A DNA stretch of 29,196 bases, taken from a virus. Position 1 is the first letter of the stretch. Every line of letters starts with the position of its first letter. Under the pieces are notes generated by a model. That model was not told where the DNA came from. It saw nothing but the letters and a program-made list of their open reading frames with translations, and did no database searches. Of the stretch, positions 604 to 8,404 are shown piece by piece. The stretch is taken from the IMG/VR virus record IMGVR_UViG_3300032240_001224, positions 1 through 29,196 of that record, one strand, 5' to 3'. The translations under genes and the position numbers were made by a program.

Positions 604-628
604 ATGCCACCTTCGGGTGGCATTTTTT
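604..628 (+). terminator. Rho-independent terminator of gene 32
   Basis: A perfect 8-bp stem (ATGCCACC at 604-611 pairing with GGTGGCAT at 616-623) is closed by the stable TTCG tetraloop and followed by six T residues at 623-628. It starts 10 bases after the gp32 stop. The stop codon of the convergent minus-strand gene (627-629) overlaps the end of the T-run. On the minus strand the hairpin is not followed by a T-tract, so it is mainly a plus-strand terminator. Confidence 0.9.
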
Positions 629-2783
629 ATGCTGGCACTTCTCTTCTCAATTGCGTAGATTCAACAACGGTAGTGTTTGTGACACTTGCGTTTATCACCG
701 TAGGATTTTTTGGTTTAGATTGATTACGCTGTTCAACGGCAAGTTCTGTTGATGACTTACCAACATTTAATCCTTCACCTTTTGCTTGTCCCGTAGCAGG
801 ATCGATTGTGGCGCCAGTCTTGGATGTTACGGTATCATCATCTGGTGTTGGTGGAGCACCTGCAATTGTAACATGCCAATCTTCACCTTTAACATTACGA
901 ATCAAACCGAATTTCTCTAACCAACCAGTAGATTTATCTCTAGTTCCAGCAAGAGTATTCAGTCCATCATCACCCTTGCTGTTAATATCAATACCAAAAC
1001 CTTTAATATGAACACTACCTATACCTGAACCTAACGGTGCCATAGGTTGTGCTACTTTACCACTTGGTTTACCATTGTTCTTTGCTAGATCAGCATCATA
1101 TAATTGTTTTTGTTTTTCATTCGAACGATAACCAGAAGTGATTAACAACATCTTACCAGTTTCTTGTTTGAATGCCGCGGCCATCGTTTCAACACGACTT
1201 TGAAACGTAGGATTGAAACTAGAAGTATCTACACCAGCATCGGCCTTCTTTGTAAGACTATCTAAGTTTCCTTTTGGTACTTCCGTTTGGGCAACAACAG
1301 GAGTTGCACCCCCACCACCACCAGACCCCGCTGGCGTTGCGGCAGTTTGTGTTGGTTGTTCTATCGGAGCAAAAACTGATTTACTGGATCTATACTTTGG
1401 AGGTGGTGCGGGTGGAAGTACAATAGGTTCAACTTTCTTGCCACCCCTTTTCTGTTCATCCCTTTTTGCAATGAGTTCTTTTAGTTTATCTCTTTTCCAA
1501 GTGAGTCCTTCGATATCCGAATCGAGAACATCTAACTGTTCCACAATACCAGCGTATGGATCAATTGGTTTTTCTTTCTGGCCTGGTTTTGTTGCTGACG
1601 GTTCGATTCCTAAAACATTTTTATCTAATGACCGTCCTATGCCTTTTAGTTTGTCGGCAATCCAATTACCTATACCACCTAAAAACTCACCGATTCTTCT
1701 TGTCACAGGAGATATAAAATCACCAATTGTGTTCAATACTTTTGCGGCATCTTCTTTAGTGATTAATCCAAACGATAAAAACTCAATCAGTTTAGATGCT
1801 TCTTTTACGAATGCTGCACCCCAATCGGTAGAGCCGAAGAAATCATTGAATGCAGATTTCAAGGATTCAATACCCATTGATATGATACCTTCAACACCAC
1901 CAAGACTTTCAATGATGCCTAAAATGGCATCTTTGTTCATGAATAGAGCAAATGCTATTCCTATTACAAGCGTCATTAGACCATCAAGAATACTATCTAA
2001 TATATTTTTAAAGAAACCTTTTACTTTCTTTTTTACATTCTTTTTACGTTCGGCTTTTTTTGTTTTTTTAGTTTCTTTATCGACTTCGTTAGGTTTAAAC
2101 AGATTGGTCAGTTTTGAACCAACATCTGGTTTTGCTACTGCTTTCACACCTTCAAGTTTGGCAAATTGACCAAAGCCTTTACTGATGAGTTTGAGTTCTT
2201 TACTTATTCTACGGAAAAGAATTGTGTTCTTCGCAAATATTTTGAGTGCTGCTACACCTTCCAGCGTAGGACTCTTTGCACTCTCTTTCTTTTTAAATAG
2301 ATCACCAAAAGATGATTTTTCTTGTTTATCATCTTGTTTCTTTTCGTCCTGTTTTACTTGTTCCTTAGTTGATTGTGATGGAGCATGTGGTTCTTGTTTT
2401 TCTAATACTTTACCAACAGGAAGTTCTTTACCTACCTTTTCTTCAGCATCAACACGTTGTTTTGCTGCATTCTCAATTGCATCTAGTCGGGCTGCAATTA
2501 AATTTTTAATCGACTGATTTTTTGTAAATTCATCATGACCAGGAAGTTTCATAACTTCCTTCTCTCTTTGCTCAAGAGTTTTTTCGGACATCTTCCGTCC
2601 GACATCTTTAAGTATTTTTAATTCATTTTTTGATAATCCAGTTCCACCATTGCTTAAATATTTGTTTAATATTTGTTGTTCTTTTTTAGTGTCAACAGCA
2701 CCTTCAGAGAGTTTTTCAAATCTCTGTTCTCTTAATATCTTTGCTTTTTTTAATCTACCTTTTCTGATATCATCACTTGTCAT
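627..2783 (-). CDS. Tail/baseplate-associated protein with C-terminal M15 (VanY-type) peptidase domain
   Basis: 718 aa. The N-terminal 1-170 is charged and probably helical. A segment at 177-212 (around KIFAKNTILFRRISKELKLI) and a hydrophobic stretch at 265-300, followed by FLSFGLITKEDAAKVL at 335-350, resemble equivalent segments in the two proteins encoded upstream. A Pro/Gly linker (about 455-500) leads to an M15 metallopeptidase domain at about 505-642. It has SVHIKGFGIDI, giving zinc ligands His592 and Asp599, and EDWH, giving catalytic Glu634 and zinc ligand His637. M15 enzymes cut peptide cross-bridges of peptidoglycan. No signal peptide is seen. It is the last gene of the minus-strand operon, and its ATG overlaps the previous stop (TAATG) with AAGGG upstream. 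Role in the virion is inferred: local wall opening during DNA injection, possibly as a tape-measure-like or hub-attached chain. The peptidase call is firm; the structural role is less so. Confidence 0.8.
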   Translation of the reverse strand: MTSDDIRKGRLKKAKILREQRFEKLSEGAVDTKKEQQILNKYLSNGGTGLSKNELKILKDVGRKMSEKTLEQREKEVMKLPGHDEFTKNQSIKNLIAARLDAIENAAKQRVDAEEKVGKELPVGKVLEKQEPHAPSQSTKEQVKQDEKKQDDKQEKSSFGDLFKKKESAKSPTLEGVAALKIFAKNTILFRRISKELKLISKGFGQFAKLEGVKAVAKPDVGSKLTNLFKPNEVDKETKKTKKAERKKNVKKKVKGFFKNILDSILDGLMTLVIGIAFALFMNKDAILGIIESLGGVEGIISMGIESLKSAFNDFFGSTDWGAAFVKEASKLIEFLSFGLITKEDAAKVLNTIGDFISPVTRRIGEFLGGIGNWIADKLKGIGRSLDKNVLGIEPSATKPGQKEKPIDPYAGIVEQLDVLDSDIEGLTWKRDKLKELIAKRDEQKRGGKKVEPIVLPPAPPPKYRSSKSVFAPIEQPTQTAATPAGSGGGGGATPVVAQTEVPKGNLDSLTKKADAGVDTSSFNPTFQSRVETMAAAFKQETGKMLLITSGYRSNEKQKQLYDADLAKNNGKPSGKVAQPMAPLGSGIGSVHIKGFGIDINSKGDDGLNTLAGTRDKSTGWLEKFGLIRNVKGEDWHVTIAGAPPTPDDDTVTSKTGATIDPATGQAKGEGLNVGKSSTELAVEQRNQSKPKNPTVINASVTNTTVVESTQLRREVPA

Positions 2784-4987
2784 TATGTTGCCCTTGCCAA
2801 TAATGCATCATTGCCGTTAATTTTCTTATCTACGGCAGCAACTTTTGTATCTGTTACTTTGGTATTATTAGTCTGTGCAACGTTCACGGTATTAACATCA
2901 GTTGGTTTCATTTGCTCTCGTTGACCTTGCGATACTTCTTTACTTGTACTATCAAGTGCTAAATTTTCATACTTACTTGCTGCCTCTAACTGTCCTCTGT
3001 TTGTTGCTGCAAGTTTACTTGTAGTAAATGCCGCTTCAACTTTTGCCATGTCACCACCAAGACCACCCATGGCAACATTACCAATTATAACTTTCAACGC
3101 CGTTTTAAAATCAGGCATCTTGTTTAATACTGCTAAACCTTTTTCTTTATTACCTTGACCGACAGAATTAAGTATGTAACCTGCTGCTGCTTTCGATGCG
3201 ATATCAAAGTCACTCATTATCGAATCTGGATTATTTTCCAGATCGACTCCAATTATCTTACCAATATTTTTGTATATGCTGCGACCAGTAATCTGTATAA
3301 AACCACGACCCCTAAACAAATAACCGTCACCAGGTTTGCTATTTGTTGTTAGTCCATCATAAACCATTGAGAAGAATGCTTCATCACCTTTTGACCAAAT
3401 CTCTTTTAGTTTTTCTGGCGACACACCATTTGGTTCGTTCATCAATTTTGCAACACGACCGCCAGGACCCAACTGAGGAAATTTATTATAAATGTAAGAG
3501 ATACCACGATTATTTAATGTTGCAAGCCATCCTTTTGCACCAATCTCTTTAGACTTTGGATCCAATCCAGATTCTTTTGCTGCTGTTGCCACCAATGCTT
3601 GAATTGCATATACATTTCTAATACCTAAAGATGCAACCGCTTCTGCAAATTGTTTTGCTCTACCTCTCATACCTTCTGGAGCAGGAGATGGCTTACTTGG
3701 TGGTAAGACGGGTCTAGGTGCTGCTGCTTCTTTTCGCATAGCACCTTCTTTTTGTATTGCATTGTCTAACGCTTTTTCTGTTTTACGAAGTTCTTCTTTT
3801 TTCTTAATTACTTGTTCAGTCTCTTCAGTCTTTTTACCATAAGCATCAACCTCAAGCGCAGCAATCTCATTAATCAGTTCATCTCGTTGTTGTGTTTTCT
3901 GTTCAACTAATTGTTTTGCTCTAGCCAAATTTTCTGCAAGTTTTTCATTTTTCTTTTGTAACTCATCCTGCTCTTTTGCTCTCTTTACAGCATCCTCTGC
4001 AATCTTTGCGAAGTCTGCATCAGTCATAGGTTTAGGTTTCAATGGATTCATATCCGATATTTTTTTAACCAAACCTGAAACTATATCATCAACTGCCTTT
4101 GCCGTATCGGATACAAATTTACCTATATTTTTTGGAATGTCTTTAAGAAAGTCTACAGTACCATTAATTACTTTAGCGGCAGTTTCTTTATCGAAAAGAC
4201 CAAACGTTAATGAATCAACTAGACCAGAAATACCTGCCACCAAAGTTTTATACCAATCACCAGTTTCTTGCCAAGTATCCCACGCATCCGTCAATCCATC
4301 CCACAACGTCCATATAATCAATACAACCCAACCCACTGGACCAGATGCAACTGCGGCAGTTCGTGCTGCAACTTTTACTGCCGCTTTACCTACTTTCTTT
4401 GCTGCTTGTTTTGCAAGTTTGACGCCTTCTTTTTTTTGTAATTCTTTTATCTTATCACCAACAATTTTATCGGAAAGTTCAGTAAGATACTTCCAAGCAT
4501 TCTTTGCATAGTCTTTAACTTTATTGAGTAGTTGTTTCGCAAACTTTTTTATATTATCCATTAACGACTTGAATAATTTTTTTGCTTGATCCTTAACTTG
4601 TGTTGCTAACTTCTTGGCATTTTCTGCTAGTTTTTTTGCGCCCTCTTTAATTTTTTTAAATTTTGCACCTTTAGAACTTTTAGGATCATCTTCTGCGGTT
4701 GGAGTTCTGGCAGCAATTTCTTTTCCTTGATCTACTGCAAATTTCTTTTCTACCTCATCCTCTTTCAGCAAATGCATATCTTCTTTATCGGCAGATTTTA
4801 CACCATACAATCCAACAAGCGTGATTATATTTTGCCGAACAATATTGAGATCACTAGCCGCTTTTGATAAATCGGCATAGTTCAATGCTGCTTTCTTTAA
4901 AAGTTTGTGGGCAGGAACTACTTTTTTTGATGAGTCCTCATTCAGGACTTTCTTTTTGATCGTAAGACCTAAAATATCTGATAACAC
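2783..4987 (-). CDS. Tail/baseplate-associated protein with C-terminal GH19 (chitinase/endolysin-type) domain
   Basis: 734 aa from a GTG start at 4985-4987. The next Met in frame is residue 71, so GTG is preferred although no clear ribosome binding site precedes it; it follows the upstream stop by one base and is probably translationally coupled. Residues 28-62 contain LNIVRQNIITLVGL, close to NVLRQNISKLVNL in the 584-aa protein. A Lys/Ala-rich helical region spans 105-210. A hydrophobic segment (216-235) leads to the shared motif SLTFGLFDKETAAKVI (259-274). Coiled coil is likely at 330-420, then a Pro-rich linker, then a GH19 domain at about 440-665. The GH19 signature is YLFRGRGFIQITGR (556-569). 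Candidate catalytic acids are Glu472 (KESG) and Glu481. Phage GH19 enzymes cleave the murein glycan. Its place in an operon with tail genes suggests a virion-borne lysin rather than a lysis endolysin. Confidence 0.8.
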   Translation of the reverse strand: MLSDILGLTIKKKVLNEDSSKKVVPAHKLLKKAALNYADLSKAASDLNIVRQNIITLVGLYGVKSADKEDMHLLKEDEVEKKFAVDQGKEIAARTPTAEDDPKSSKGAKFKKIKEGAKKLAENAKKLATQVKDQAKKLFKSLMDNIKKFAKQLLNKVKDYAKNAWKYLTELSDKIVGDKIKELQKKEGVKLAKQAAKKVGKAAVKVAARTAAVASGPVGWVVLIIWTLWDGLTDAWDTWQETGDWYKTLVAGISGLVDSLTFGLFDKETAAKVINGTVDFLKDIPKNIGKFVSDTAKAVDDIVSGLVKKISDMNPLKPKPMTDADFAKIAEDAVKRAKEQDELQKKNEKLAENLARAKQLVEQKTQQRDELINEIAALEVDAYGKKTEETEQVIKKKEELRKTEKALDNAIQKEGAMRKEAAAPRPVLPPSKPSPAPEGMRGRAKQFAEAVASLGIRNVYAIQALVATAAKESGLDPKSKEIGAKGWLATLNNRGISYIYNKFPQLGPGGRVAKLMNEPNGVSPEKLKEIWSKGDEAFFSMVYDGLTTNSKPGDGYLFRGRGFIQITGRSIYKNIGKIIGVDLENNPDSIMSDFDIASKAAAGYILNSVGQGNKEKGLAVLNKMPDFKTALKVIIGNVAMGGLGGDMAKVEAAFTTSKLAATNRGQLEAASKYENLALDSTSKEVSQGQREQMKPTDVNTVNVAQTNNTKVTDTKVAAVDKKINGNDALLARAT

Positions 4988-4988
4988 T

Positions 4989-6743
4989 TTAGGCCGTCAT
5001 ATAGTTGTTGATAAAACTTGTATTATAGACACTAGCAATATTTTCAGGCTCTCTACCTTTTGTTCCTGCTTGATTATTTGTTGTGGGTGCATCAATTGTA
5101 ACACCAGAATCTGCGGCAGAATCCATTCGTTGGCCTTCTGCAACTTCGGATGATGCTGATGATAATGCTGCACCAGAAACTGAAGGTGATGATTCCGATG
5201 ATGGGCTTGGTGATGCACCTACAGAACCGCCACCTGATGATGTTCCACCAATATCACCACCCGTTGATGGCATTGATGCTGCTGGCGCTGCTGTTGGTAT
5301 TGTTACTGGTGTTGCTGCTTTTTGTCCTCTGGCATTTTGAAGAATCTTTGTTGGATCACCACCAACTGCGGCAACTTCTTGACGAACTGCTTCCTCTGAT
5401 AGTTGTTCACCAGTTTTATCATCAATAAAACCTGTTGTCGAATTTGGATCAACGGTAATACCCAGTTTAGTTTTTAGAAAACCAACAGCACCCTTTTGAT
5501 CTTTTTCAGCATTCTTTGCACTATATGGATCTTCTTTTGAAGGTGATGTCCCAAGTTTTTCTTCTAGTTTGCCTGCCGCTTCTGGTGTTGTACTTGCTGC
5601 TTTGTCTTTTTCTTTTTGTTCTTCTTTTGCTTTTCTTGCTTTATCATAAAAAACACCCTCACCACTATCAAGTTTGGCTTGATTTTCTTTTAGTGCTGTT
5701 GTTGCACTTGATGTATAACTTTCTTTTGCACCACTTGATGGATTACTTTTGAATGGATACCATGCAGGCGTTCCTGGTATAGTAACATCATCTAAAACAT
5801 TACCTTTAAATGAACCTAATTTACCAAGGTCTATATCGTATGCTGTTAATTTCTTAAACGGAATTTTAAATGGGGGTGTACCTGGCCAACCAACGTTATT
5901 TTTAATCCAAGTGACTACATCATCAAAGAATTGCGTAACACTTAACATCAAAGGATTTAGATACGTTAGTGCTGTATCCATTCCTTTGCGTAGATCATTT
6001 TCGTTGAATAAACCAAAAGTGATGAATTGTAAAAAACCACCCATAGCAGATATGAGTGTATCGGTAATACTGCCAGTTTCTTTGAACGTATTGATACCGT
6101 CCATGATGCCATTGATTAATCCACCAATGATCATAGCAGGTAAAAATATTTTGCTCAGAATAGCAAATATAGTACCACCACTAAACAAAGCACCAAATGC
6201 ACCAACGATTCCCATGAACAAACCTTTTAGTAAGTTCACTGGATTAAGCATATCCATTAAACCAGATAGAAGTCCACCACCATCTTTCTTTGCTTCTGTC
6301 GGTTCTTTCTTATCTTTTCCTTCTTTAGTCGGTGTGTTTTTCTTTCGTTCATCCTCTAGTTTTGCTTCACGGGCATCTTCAGTCTGGAAGAATTTGTCTG
6401 CTTTACCTTCCGCTTTTACTTTGCTCTCTTTACCTTTTAGATTAACCAGTTTAGAAATATTCTGGCGAAGCACATTCATATCACGTGCCATACCAGGCAG
6501 AACAATAGAGTTCTTAGCAATTACATTTAAAAATGGTAAAACATCTGCACTTATTCCACCAGCAGATTCGGCTTGAGCACCTTCTGCACCTTCTTTTGAT
6601 GGAGAAGTTTCCTCTTTCTTTTTACCTCCAAATAATGACATGAACGAAAAACCCGAGTCTTTATTGCCGACAGACTCTTTCATTTTATCAAAATTTTTAT
6701 AACCTAGACTTTTGGCTAGTTCTTCTAAATTCTTTTTTGCCAT
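4989..6743 (-). CDS. Probable tape-measure-like tail protein (gp29 position; founder type of a three-gene family)
   Basis: 584 aa, close to the 590 aa of T4 gp29. Residues 68-104 hold a segment around NVLRQNISKLVNL. Residues 172-217 are strongly hydrophobic and Gly/Ala-rich, and FLQFITFGLFNENDLRKG (237-254) matches motifs in the GH19 and M15 proteins downstream. The C-terminal third (about 350-584) is Ser/Thr/Pro/Gly-rich, without a recognisable enzyme domain. The ATG overlaps the stop of the preceding short ORF (TAATG) and has GAAGG just upstream. Its position after a tube-like gene, gp26 and a -1-frame extension is the usual place of the tape measure gene in tailed phages. I see no direct sequence match to T4 gp29, so the role is inferred from position, size, hydrophobic core and operon; a structural baseplate-hub protein is the alternative. 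Confidence 0.55.
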   Translation of the reverse strand: MAKKNLEELAKSLGYKNFDKMKESVGNKDSGFSFMSLFGGKKKEETSPSKEGAEGAQAESAGGISADVLPFLNVIAKNSIVLPGMARDMNVLRQNISKLVNLKGKESKVKAEGKADKFFQTEDAREAKLEDERKKNTPTKEGKDKKEPTEAKKDGGGLLSGLMDMLNPVNLLKGLFMGIVGAFGALFSGGTIFAILSKIFLPAMIIGGLINGIMDGINTFKETGSITDTLISAMGGFLQFITFGLFNENDLRKGMDTALTYLNPLMLSVTQFFDDVVTWIKNNVGWPGTPPFKIPFKKLTAYDIDLGKLGSFKGNVLDDVTIPGTPAWYPFKSNPSSGAKESYTSSATTALKENQAKLDSGEGVFYDKARKAKEEQKEKDKAASTTPEAAGKLEEKLGTSPSKEDPYSAKNAEKDQKGAVGFLKTKLGITVDPNSTTGFIDDKTGEQLSEEAVRQEVAAVGGDPTKILQNARGQKAATPVTIPTAAPAASMPSTGGDIGGTSSGGGSVGASPSPSSESSPSVSGAALSSASSEVAEGQRMDSAADSGVTIDAPTTNNQAGTKGREPENIASVYNTSFINNYMTA

Positions 6744-6883
6744 TACCTTCTACTTTGTTTTTGTTGATTGATACGTTCTTTTTCCTCTTCAAGGTATTTT
6801 ACTAATAACGAAACGTAAATGCTTCTTTCCCAAGGTATCATATTTTCAAGTTCAGACAAACTATATTTGTGATGTTGCATCAT
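6743..6883 (-). CDS. Short -1-frame ORF after gp26: probable frameshift extension (gp51-like / tail assembly chaperone second ORF)
   Basis: This 46-aa ORF is read from ATG 6881-6883 to TAA 6743-6745. Its frame is open further upstream, to the slippery site at 6937-6946, with 18 more codons and no stop. It contains HKYSLSELENMIPWERSIY and then a Leu/Glu-rich helix (LLVKYLEEEKERI), a pattern typical of the frameshift-made C-terminal part of tail assembly chaperones (aromatic, S.xE, WE, then a helix). No ribosome binding site precedes the ATG, which favours synthesis as a gp26 fusion of about 306 aa (6743-7662) over separate initiation. In T4 the gene after 26 is 51 (hub assembly catalyst), but T4 gp51 is far longer, so that name is not firm. 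The stop overlaps the next gene's start. Confidence 0.65.
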   Translation of the reverse strand: MMQHHKYSLSELENMIPWERSIYVSLLVKYLEEEKERINQQKQSRR

Positions 6884-6930
6884 CGCAAAGTTTGTCTGAT
6901 AGTAATTACCTAGTGATTCATGACGAAATA

Positions 6931-7662
6931 TTAAACGAAAAAATTTTGTAGACCTTTAATCTCAATGTCTTCCTCGTATCCACACTTGCCGCATTTGAAG
7001 TGAACATCTTTTTTAATTTCAGGCATCGTATCAAAGAACTTTTTAATTTTCTCAAGGTCTTTCTGTTGCATAGAATCGATGAACTCCATCAACTCCTCTT
7101 TGGGTGTATCTTTAGCGTAGTATACTTGTTCATCATCGTACAAATAATCGATACAATCGATCAGTACATTTACCAGAATTTGATTCTCGTCCATGTTCTC
7201 ATAGTTCTGAATCATCTCAAATGTTGGATATTTCAAACAGATACCAACTTTTTCATTTAACATAAACTTTGTTTCATGATCTTCATGTTTTGTTGGTTCA
7301 ATTTCTAACAAGTTCAAACTGAAATCTACTGAACCAGCACACTTCTTTCTCTCACCTTTATCATCGGTAATATCATTGTTACACTTATACTTCAGTTCAA
7401 CAACTTCTTCCACTGATCGAGCACGAAGATTCATAAACAAATATTCGAGATCAAATGTAGGCAAGTTATCAATATCAAGTTCATCGATTACACAGTTCTT
7501 TAAAACTTGACGAATGGTATTGATTGTCTCTTTTGGGTCCTCTGATTCTGCCGCCATCAGAAACAACTTTTGTTCTTTTACTAGGAATGGACGAATGCGA
7601 ACATCCTGACCATTTGAAATGAGTTTGATAGTATAGATTGGTACATCAAGTTTTGGTAACAT
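6931..7662 (-). CDS. 26: gp26-like baseplate hub / tail assembly protein (T4 baseplate protein family)
   Basis: 243 aa; T4 gp26 is about 208. The N-terminus (LDVPIYTIKLISNGQDVRIR, then PFLVKEQKLFLMAAES) and the middle segment DLEYLFMNLRARSVEEVVEL match the family of T4-type gp26 proteins needed for hub assembly. Four cysteines in two pairs (Cys94 and Cys108; Cys224 and Cys227 in FKCGKCGYE) could form a zinc ribbon. The start ATG (7660-7662) has a strong site, GAGAGGA, at 7667-7673. The gene lies 13 bases after the gp54-like gene. The last codons carry a slippery sequence, so a minor longer product is likely. In T4 gp26 is essential for the hub; a chaperone role for the tape measure is inferred here from gene order. 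Confidence 0.8.
   Translation of the reverse strand: MLPKLDVPIYTIKLISNGQDVRIRPFLVKEQKLFLMAAESEDPKETINTIRQVLKNCVIDELDIDNLPTFDLEYLFMNLRARSVEEVVELKYKCNNDITDDKGERKKCAGSVDFSLNLLEIEPTKHEDHETKFMLNEKVGICLKYPTFEMIQNYENMDENQILVNVLIDCIDYLYDDEQVYYAKDTPKEELMEFIDSMQQKDLEKIKKFFDTMPEIKKDVHFKCGKCGYEEDIEIKGLQNFFV
6937..6946 (-). promoter_or_regulatory. Candidate -1 ribosomal frameshift site at the end of gene 26
   Basis: Read on the minus strand the codons are CAA AAT TTT TTC GTT TAA. This gives two overlapping slippery heptamers, A AAT TTT and T TTT TTC, two codons before the gp26 stop. A -1 slip enters a frame that stays open for 64 codons (18 plus the 46-codon ORF) to 6745. An SD-like AAAGG lies at 6953-6957, about 14 bases before the shift codon, a spacing known to stimulate -1 shifting in other genes. 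No clear downstream pseudoknot was found by eye. Confidence 0.6.
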
Positions 7663-7675
7663 AATTTCCTCTCAA

Positions 7676-8404
7676 TTAGAATGATAATAATCTTGTTGCT
7701 GCACTGCCACCCAATGAAGTGAGTGTTTGTCCAATATCATATTTACCTTCAAAGATAGAACGATATTTCTGGTATGTAAATTCAACAGATAAACGATGGA
7801 ATCCATCATCACCCCAACTCAGTGCTTGGGGTGAAATGCCAGTTGGAAATGCGTCAATCAAATCTACGGCATAAATTTGACGAACAACATCGTCATATTG
7901 TATAATACGAATGTCCGTCAAGTATCTTGAAACTTGACTTTTAGGAAAACGTGGATTGTTTGTGTCAGAAGGAATGATTGCGTCCATCCAACGTTCAAAT
8001 AATTTACGTTCATAAAAATCATTTGTACAAATGAATGTTAATGTTGTTTTTGTATATTGCATACGATATGGAACTTCAAAAGAAGGACCATATATTTTAA
8101 CAGGTACTGTTTCTAATGTACGTCCAGGCAATTCTGCTGCTTCACATTGAAGAGCAAGATACCTAGATACGGAAGGATTTGATGATTTCATTCCATCCGA
8201 TTCACTACCCATAGCATTATTGATTGCATCAGATACGTCAGTAAATATTGAATTTGGAAAGTTTAGTACCTTTTCCAAAAATGAATTACCTATTGACTGA
8301 CCAATATAAGGTGGGATAGGCAACACAACTTCAAAACGATTTGTCCTAGCAGGACCACCTTTGCCATTGATGTTTGATAGAAATAGATTGGGTGAAAACG
8401 ACAT
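7676..8404 (-). CDS. 54: gp54-like baseplate tail-tube initiator (gp19-type tube fold)
   Basis: 242 aa, against 320 in T4 gp54. It starts with RTNRFEVVLPIPPYI, followed by CEAAELPGRTLETVPVKIYG, the pattern of T4 gp19/gp54 tube proteins. The C-terminal part ISPQALSWGDDGFHRLSVEF aligns with the T4 gp54 region where a Tyr/Trp-Asp-rich turn precedes the last strands. These proteins form the ring on the baseplate from which tube polymerisation starts. The ATG overlaps the upstream stop (TAATG) and has AGAGGA before it. Being followed by gp26 puts a tube-type gene ahead of the chaperone, as in other tailed phages. The major tube protein gp19 itself is the alternative, but that protein is shorter (163 aa in T4) and normally sits next to the sheath gene. 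Confidence 0.65.
   Translation of the reverse strand: MSFSPNLFLSNINGKGGPARTNRFEVVLPIPPYIGQSIGNSFLEKVLNFPNSIFTDVSDAINNAMGSESDGMKSSNPSVSRYLALQCEAAELPGRTLETVPVKIYGPSFEVPYRMQYTKTTLTFICTNDFYERKLFERWMDAIIPSDTNNPRFPKSQVSRYLTDIRIIQYDDVVRQIYAVDLIDAFPTGISPQALSWGDDGFHRLSVEFTYQKYRSIFEGKYDIGQTLTSLGGSAATRLLSF

Follow-up and report, generated by a model that had tools for sequence, protein, structure and literature searches.

The gp26-family gene of an uncultured T4-type phage, carried on the 29,196-nucleotide stretch analysed here (IMG/VR record IMGVR_UViG_3300032240_001224, referred to as the window), very probably encodes both a short protein and a -1 frameshifted long form of it, which together would make up a tail assembly chaperone pair of the lambda G/GT type. 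The gene (6931..7662, minus strand), labelled as baseplate protein 26, specifies a 243 aa protein, the short chaperone form (TAC-N or "G"), that matches PF12322 (E-value: 1.1e-60, passing the cut-off) and phrog_150 (E-value: 2e-68). The majority of ribosomes would end at the gp26 stop codon to give this 243-residue form. A predicted minority would slip one base back on a T_TTT_TTC heptamer, with both Phe tRNAs re-pairing with TTT TTT, pass the stop codon in the -1 frame and extend the protein by 64 residues (RLIFRHES...) to yield a 306-residue long form. If the pair acts as lambda G/GT does, the short form would coat the tape measure protein, the extension would recruit tail tube subunits and neither form should stay in the virion.

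Conservation of the proposed slip site

On the minus strand, the gp26 frame ends with CAA AAT TTT TTC GTT TAA. This sequence contains two overlapping slippery heptamers, T_TTT_TTC (6937..6943) and A_AAT_TTT (6940..6946). An earlier note on this DNA gave the correct coordinates for both but placed them two codons ahead of the gp26 stop codon (6933-6931), when only a single codon (GTT) lies between T_TTT_TTC and the stop. Past the slip, the -1 frame reads CGT TTA ATA TTT CGT and continues, as the note had also read it, for 64 open codons (6746..6937, minus strand) to a stop codon (6745-6743) whose bases run into the ATG that starts the next ORF (TAATG). Going upstream, the same frame is closed by a TAA at 6958-6956. 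Because the chance of 64 open codons in the window is approximately 2%, the single sequence proves little and it is conservation that decides.

Conservation was followed across 173 loci, comprising 80 close IMG/VR relatives (71-100% identity), 80 cyanophage-like IMG/VR relatives recruited with a Kyanoviridae-type alignment and 13 reference loci. T_TTT_TTC and the -1 phase are present in all 80 close relatives, in each of which the extension is open, up to the contig end where the contig stops. The heptamer is likewise found in 80/80 cyanophage-like relatives, with the extension in the -1 frame in all 80 and in the +1 frame in none. This alignment, which the earlier note had suggested, agrees with its reading of the gp26 stop region as a programmed -1 frameshift giving a long form: site and phase are kept in 160/160 IMG/VR relatives and the phase in 13/13 reference loci. 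Within the window's group, the slippery site, the -1 phase and the open upstream part of the frame are all retained; no stop between 6937 and 6883 and no variation in relative phase, either of which the note would have counted against its proposal, was found there. It is also practically inconceivable that the extension was once part of a fused gene and is now a remnant, split off by decay or by sequencing error. A fused form does exist in T4, but 173/173 loci keep the phase, with an intact extension over whatever length of it the contig covers, which decay or error would not produce, and the reading is refuted by this conservation.

A_AAT_TTT is not conserved, as AAT is replaced by AGT in several close relatives. 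T_TTT_TTC is therefore the functional candidate and the overlapping heptamer is probably incidental. The two Phe codons of the slip site are TTT TTC without synonymous variation, and these are the only such Phe columns in gp26. The codon preceding them specifies Ser, Asn, Ala or Gly and ends in T in 80/80 cyanophage-like relatives, while at other positions 31-79% of the codons for these residues have a final T (codon usage, here and below, is given as raw counts from relatives that share ancestry). Protein-level conservation of the extension starts at the slip and takes in the part ahead of its first ATG: over the 18 codons from the slip to this ATG, variable sites at the first, second and third positions of the -1 codons number 7, 2 and 14, a pattern indicating that the stretch is translated as protein although it has no preceding start codon.

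Many cyanophage records, including those of P-RSM6 and S-PM2, annotate a separate gp51 at this place, and some Ackermannviridae, as well as Vibrio phage D510, have an ATG (or ATT) that shares bases with the gp26 stop. Both observations would fit a small ORF that is an independent gene (a short gp51), translated from its own ATG through reinitiation coupled to gp26 termination. In the window, the first ATG of the -1 frame is at 6883 and the second at 6880. Since the frame is closed at 6958-6956 and there is no in-frame ATG, GTG or TTG between this TAA and 6883 in the window, no conventional start is available ahead of 6883. We consider an independent gene very unlikely and reject it for four reasons. 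First, protein-level conservation begins at the slip, 18 codons ahead of the window's first ATG. Second, the ATGs are inconstant: ATG is found at 6883 in 12/48 unique relatives and at 6880 in 42/48, the others having ATT, ATC, GTG or TTG, so that the small ORF has no conserved strong start. Moreover, the ATG at 6883 lacks a ribosome binding site, as the earlier note had stated, with no Shine-Dalgarno motif in the bases that precede it (CAGACAAACTTTGCG). Third, an independent gene leaves the invariant T_TTT_TTC unexplained. Fourth, the extension is fused to a gp26-like domain in T4 gp51 (see below).

The proposed frameshift may be stimulated by a Shine-Dalgarno-like tract, AAAGG (6953..6957, minus strand), that lies 9 nt ahead of the heptamer. 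Upstream Shine-Dalgarno stimulation of -1 frameshifting has dnaX as its comparison case. The tract is too distant from any start codon for use in initiation and, with a spacer of approximately 9 nt, appears to be placed where such a stimulator would be expected; AAAGG, or GAGGG in other phages, may act by pairing with 16S rRNA. Purine-purine-GG is retained at this position in the window's close relatives. Among the cyanophage-like relatives, the Glu codon 14-12 nt ahead of the heptamer is GAG in 64/80 (80%), giving GAGG or GAGGG, compared to 14-42% GAG at other conserved Glu columns.

The enrichment of this tract points to the ribosome and bears on a further alternative, in which transcriptional slippage on the T6 run (an extra U in some mRNAs) yields the long form. 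The run at the site is six T long, and seven or eight T long in the phages Cr30 and Melnitz, in line with this; for slippage by RNA polymerase a run of six is short, however, and nearly all relatives preserve the tandem-slip form with its C at the end. The codon register of the heptamer is by itself indecisive on the type of slippage, because the site is homologous throughout. Taken together, we regard transcriptional slippage as extremely unlikely.

Just downstream of the slip, the predicted folding of individual sequences is somewhat more stable than that of their synonymous shuffles (mean z approximately -1.8 to -2.1; -3.1 for the window). RNAalifold detected only a weak 6-bp stem as conserved downstream structure in the close relatives and nothing in the cyanophage-like relatives. 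No shared downstream structure is claimed, as the individual hairpins differ. An inverted repeat found by self-match, TCAGACAAACT / AGTTTGTCTGA (6852..6899, minus strand), could form an RNA hairpin inside the extension, 37 nt past the heptamer; it has 11-bp perfect arms and a 26-nt loop. The codons beneath both arms (CAG ACR AAC TTT and TAT AGT TTG) hardly vary in the close relatives, and several of the residues beneath them vary more freely in the cyanophage-like relatives.

Relationship to T4 gp26 and gp51

The extension, the "T" part of the predicted long form, matches phrog_634 (gp51; E-value: 1.1e-28). It also matches the far end of the phrog_150 gp26 profile (232-279), directly past the end of gp26's own match, because T4 gp51 also belongs to the gp26 family, with a PF12322 domain at its residues 1-201 (E-value: 3.9e-52). 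In profile comparisons, gp26 matches the N-terminal part of T4 gp51 (3e-13) and the extension matches its C-terminal 48 residues (199-246; E-value: 1.8e-6). T4 gp51 is thus an in-frame fusion with its own gene, divergent from gene 26, while T4 gp26 has no extension and the -1 frame that follows it is gene 25. The same two domains are therefore present in both systems, with T4 gp26 ending where the unshifted product of the window ends and gp51 ending with the extension; unlike the window, where both forms would come from one gene, T4 has them in two divergent genes and uses no frameshift. It is because gp51 joins a gp26-like domain to the extension and T4 gp26 corresponds to the short form that a G/GT-type pair is the best reading of the locus. 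The earlier note's recasting of gp26 and gp51 as a GT-like chaperone pair stands in this respect, although it does not extend to frameshifting in T4 itself.

In a tree of the N-terminal domain, the T4-type gp26 proteins form one group and the T4-type gp51 proteins another, joined with 89/82 support and with long branches. This topology favours, but does not prove, a single duplication in the T4 line. Cyanophage gp51 has been described as lacking the first ~200 residues of T4 gp51 (Sullivan et al. 2010, PMC3037559), in a text that makes no mention of frameshifting. Most likely, cyanophage "gp51" is the frameshifted end of gp26, with no separate small gene, and the T4 "hub assembly catalyst" gp51 is the fused counterpart of this frameshift product.

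A chaperone function is predicted for both forms. Hub assembly chaperone is the role listed for T4 gp26 and gp51 in PMC3004832, and gp51 is absent from the particle, in which it resembles lambda G and GT. When an AlphaFold model of the window gp26 (pLDDT 85) was compared to the PDB with Foldseek, the top probabilities were for the HK97 tail assembly chaperone 2ob9 (0.69 and 0.60) and for 3fgx (0.66), and the remaining listed matches had probabilities of 0.11 or lower. No match in this search was significant by E-value (1 to 2 for these top matches; for the 0.69 match to 2ob9, E-value 0.96 and rmsd 3.2 over 62 columns), and the modelled likeness to the HK97 chaperone is suggestive only. A fold search of the PDB with a gp51 model found nothing, and against viral models it recovered mainly its own family. 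A sequence search of solved structures gave no match.

The gene is part of a minus-strand T4-type tail cluster that contains head-closure, DNA-end-protector, tail-tube-like and gp26 genes and three long ORFs. The tail-tube-like gene (7676..8404, minus strand; phrog_45 tail tube, E-value: 1.3e-36) is just upstream of gp26. The next ORF after the extension (4989..6743, minus strand; 584 aa), which the earlier note had taken to be of tape measure size, is a tape measure candidate based on its position after the chaperone pair, its two hydrophobic stretches and its length, which is close to that of T4 gp29 (590 aa); position and size thus fit, but the ORF had no Pfam or PHROG match. In Cr30, a large ORF two genes past gp26 is annotated as the tape measure. 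The three long ORFs past the chaperone (627-6743, minus strand; 584, 734 and 718 aa) are mutually related over 100-280 residues (BLASTP E-values: 2e-11, 3e-7 and 6e-11) and each has a hydrophobic stretch; the second has a GH19 domain and the third a VanY domain. These features suggest a tandem family of tape-measure-like proteins.

Reference phages and loci without the heptamer

The 13 reference loci were picked for diversity from phages of Synechococcus, Prochlorococcus, Pelagibacter, Methylophilales, Caulobacter, Aeromonas, Vibrio, Stenotrophomonas, Rhizobium, Klebsiella and Salmonella. The extension is in the -1 phase in all of them, and T_TTT_TTY is present in 10/13. The joined product is annotated in none of the 13 records. 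In the S-WAM1 record, the extension is unannotated and the gp26 start is approximately 38 residues late compared to P-RSM6. Pelagibacter phage Mosig differs from most of the other phages in that approximately nine codons separate the slippery site from the stop of the short form; its -1 extension is nevertheless intact.

The canonical heptamer is missing in 3/13 reference loci. In Vibrio phage D510 and the Ackermannviridae (two reference loci and 18 from IMG/VR), a conserved extension is still found in the -1 phase, with ATT TTC or CTT TTC at the place of the heptamer (for example, GAR ATT TTC ATY TAA and CTT TTC AAG TAA TGG). These heptamer-free extensions are mostly unannotated, and the Ackermannviridae records that were opened show an apparent gap past the gp26-type gene. 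An IMG/VR search with the Vibrio 6E35 protein found no relatives.

Tentatively, and with somewhat less than even confidence in the scheme as a whole, we propose that the long chaperone is made by three routes: a Shine-Dalgarno-assisted -1 frameshift on T_TTT_TTC; duplication followed by in-frame fusion; and a -1 extension without a canonical heptamer. Under this scheme, frameshifting would probably be ancestral and used in most of the marine, freshwater and soil lineages seen, fusion would be the route of T4 and its kin, and the Ackermannviridae and some vibriophages would use a non-canonical slip or start-stop coupling.

Comparison with known systems

T4-type phages are among the most abundant viruses in water, and nearly all of them have this gene pair, whose usual annotation is corrected by reading gp26 and its extension as a short and a frameshifted long form. 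A tape measure chaperone is also a testable role for two T4 proteins whose function has long been unclear. The locus offers a clean case of one expression strategy swapped for another. The principle of the chaperone pair has already been published.

The predicted pair resembles lambda G/GT in having a short protein, a low-frequency -1 slip near the 3' end of its gene and a C-terminal extension, and in its location between a tail tube gene and a tape measure candidate. It differs in that no sequence homology was detected between the two systems and in that gp26 is larger, with a Cys-rich part in many members. The lambda slippery heptamer also differs from T_TTT_TTC. The lambda -1 frameshift and the related ones of P2 and HK97 have been reviewed (PMC5009743), and this 2016 review describes G-T frameshifting as conserved "except T4". 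The TAC locus of Pseudomonas phage Adele (PMC12846349) is similar in its conserved -1 frameshift, its poly-T site and its being routinely missed in annotation; it belongs to another family (Vandenendeviridae) and has the motif GTTTTT.

The earlier note knew of no firm description of frameshifting for T4-type gene 26. According to two papers that cite it, however, Vladimirov, Gautam and Davidson (2022, Virology 566:9-15) identified the tail assembly chaperones of T4-like phages, with short-plus-fusion gene pairs (PMC10885494) and poly-T slippery sites (PMC12846349), and the arrangement is therefore not new in kind. The window shares with those chaperones, as the citing papers present them, the same pair of short and long proteins, while belonging to an uncultured lineage whose gp26 is at most approximately 40% identical to that of named phages. 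What may be new here is this lineage, the synonymous-site evidence and the phages in which the extension is possibly expressed without a slippery heptamer.
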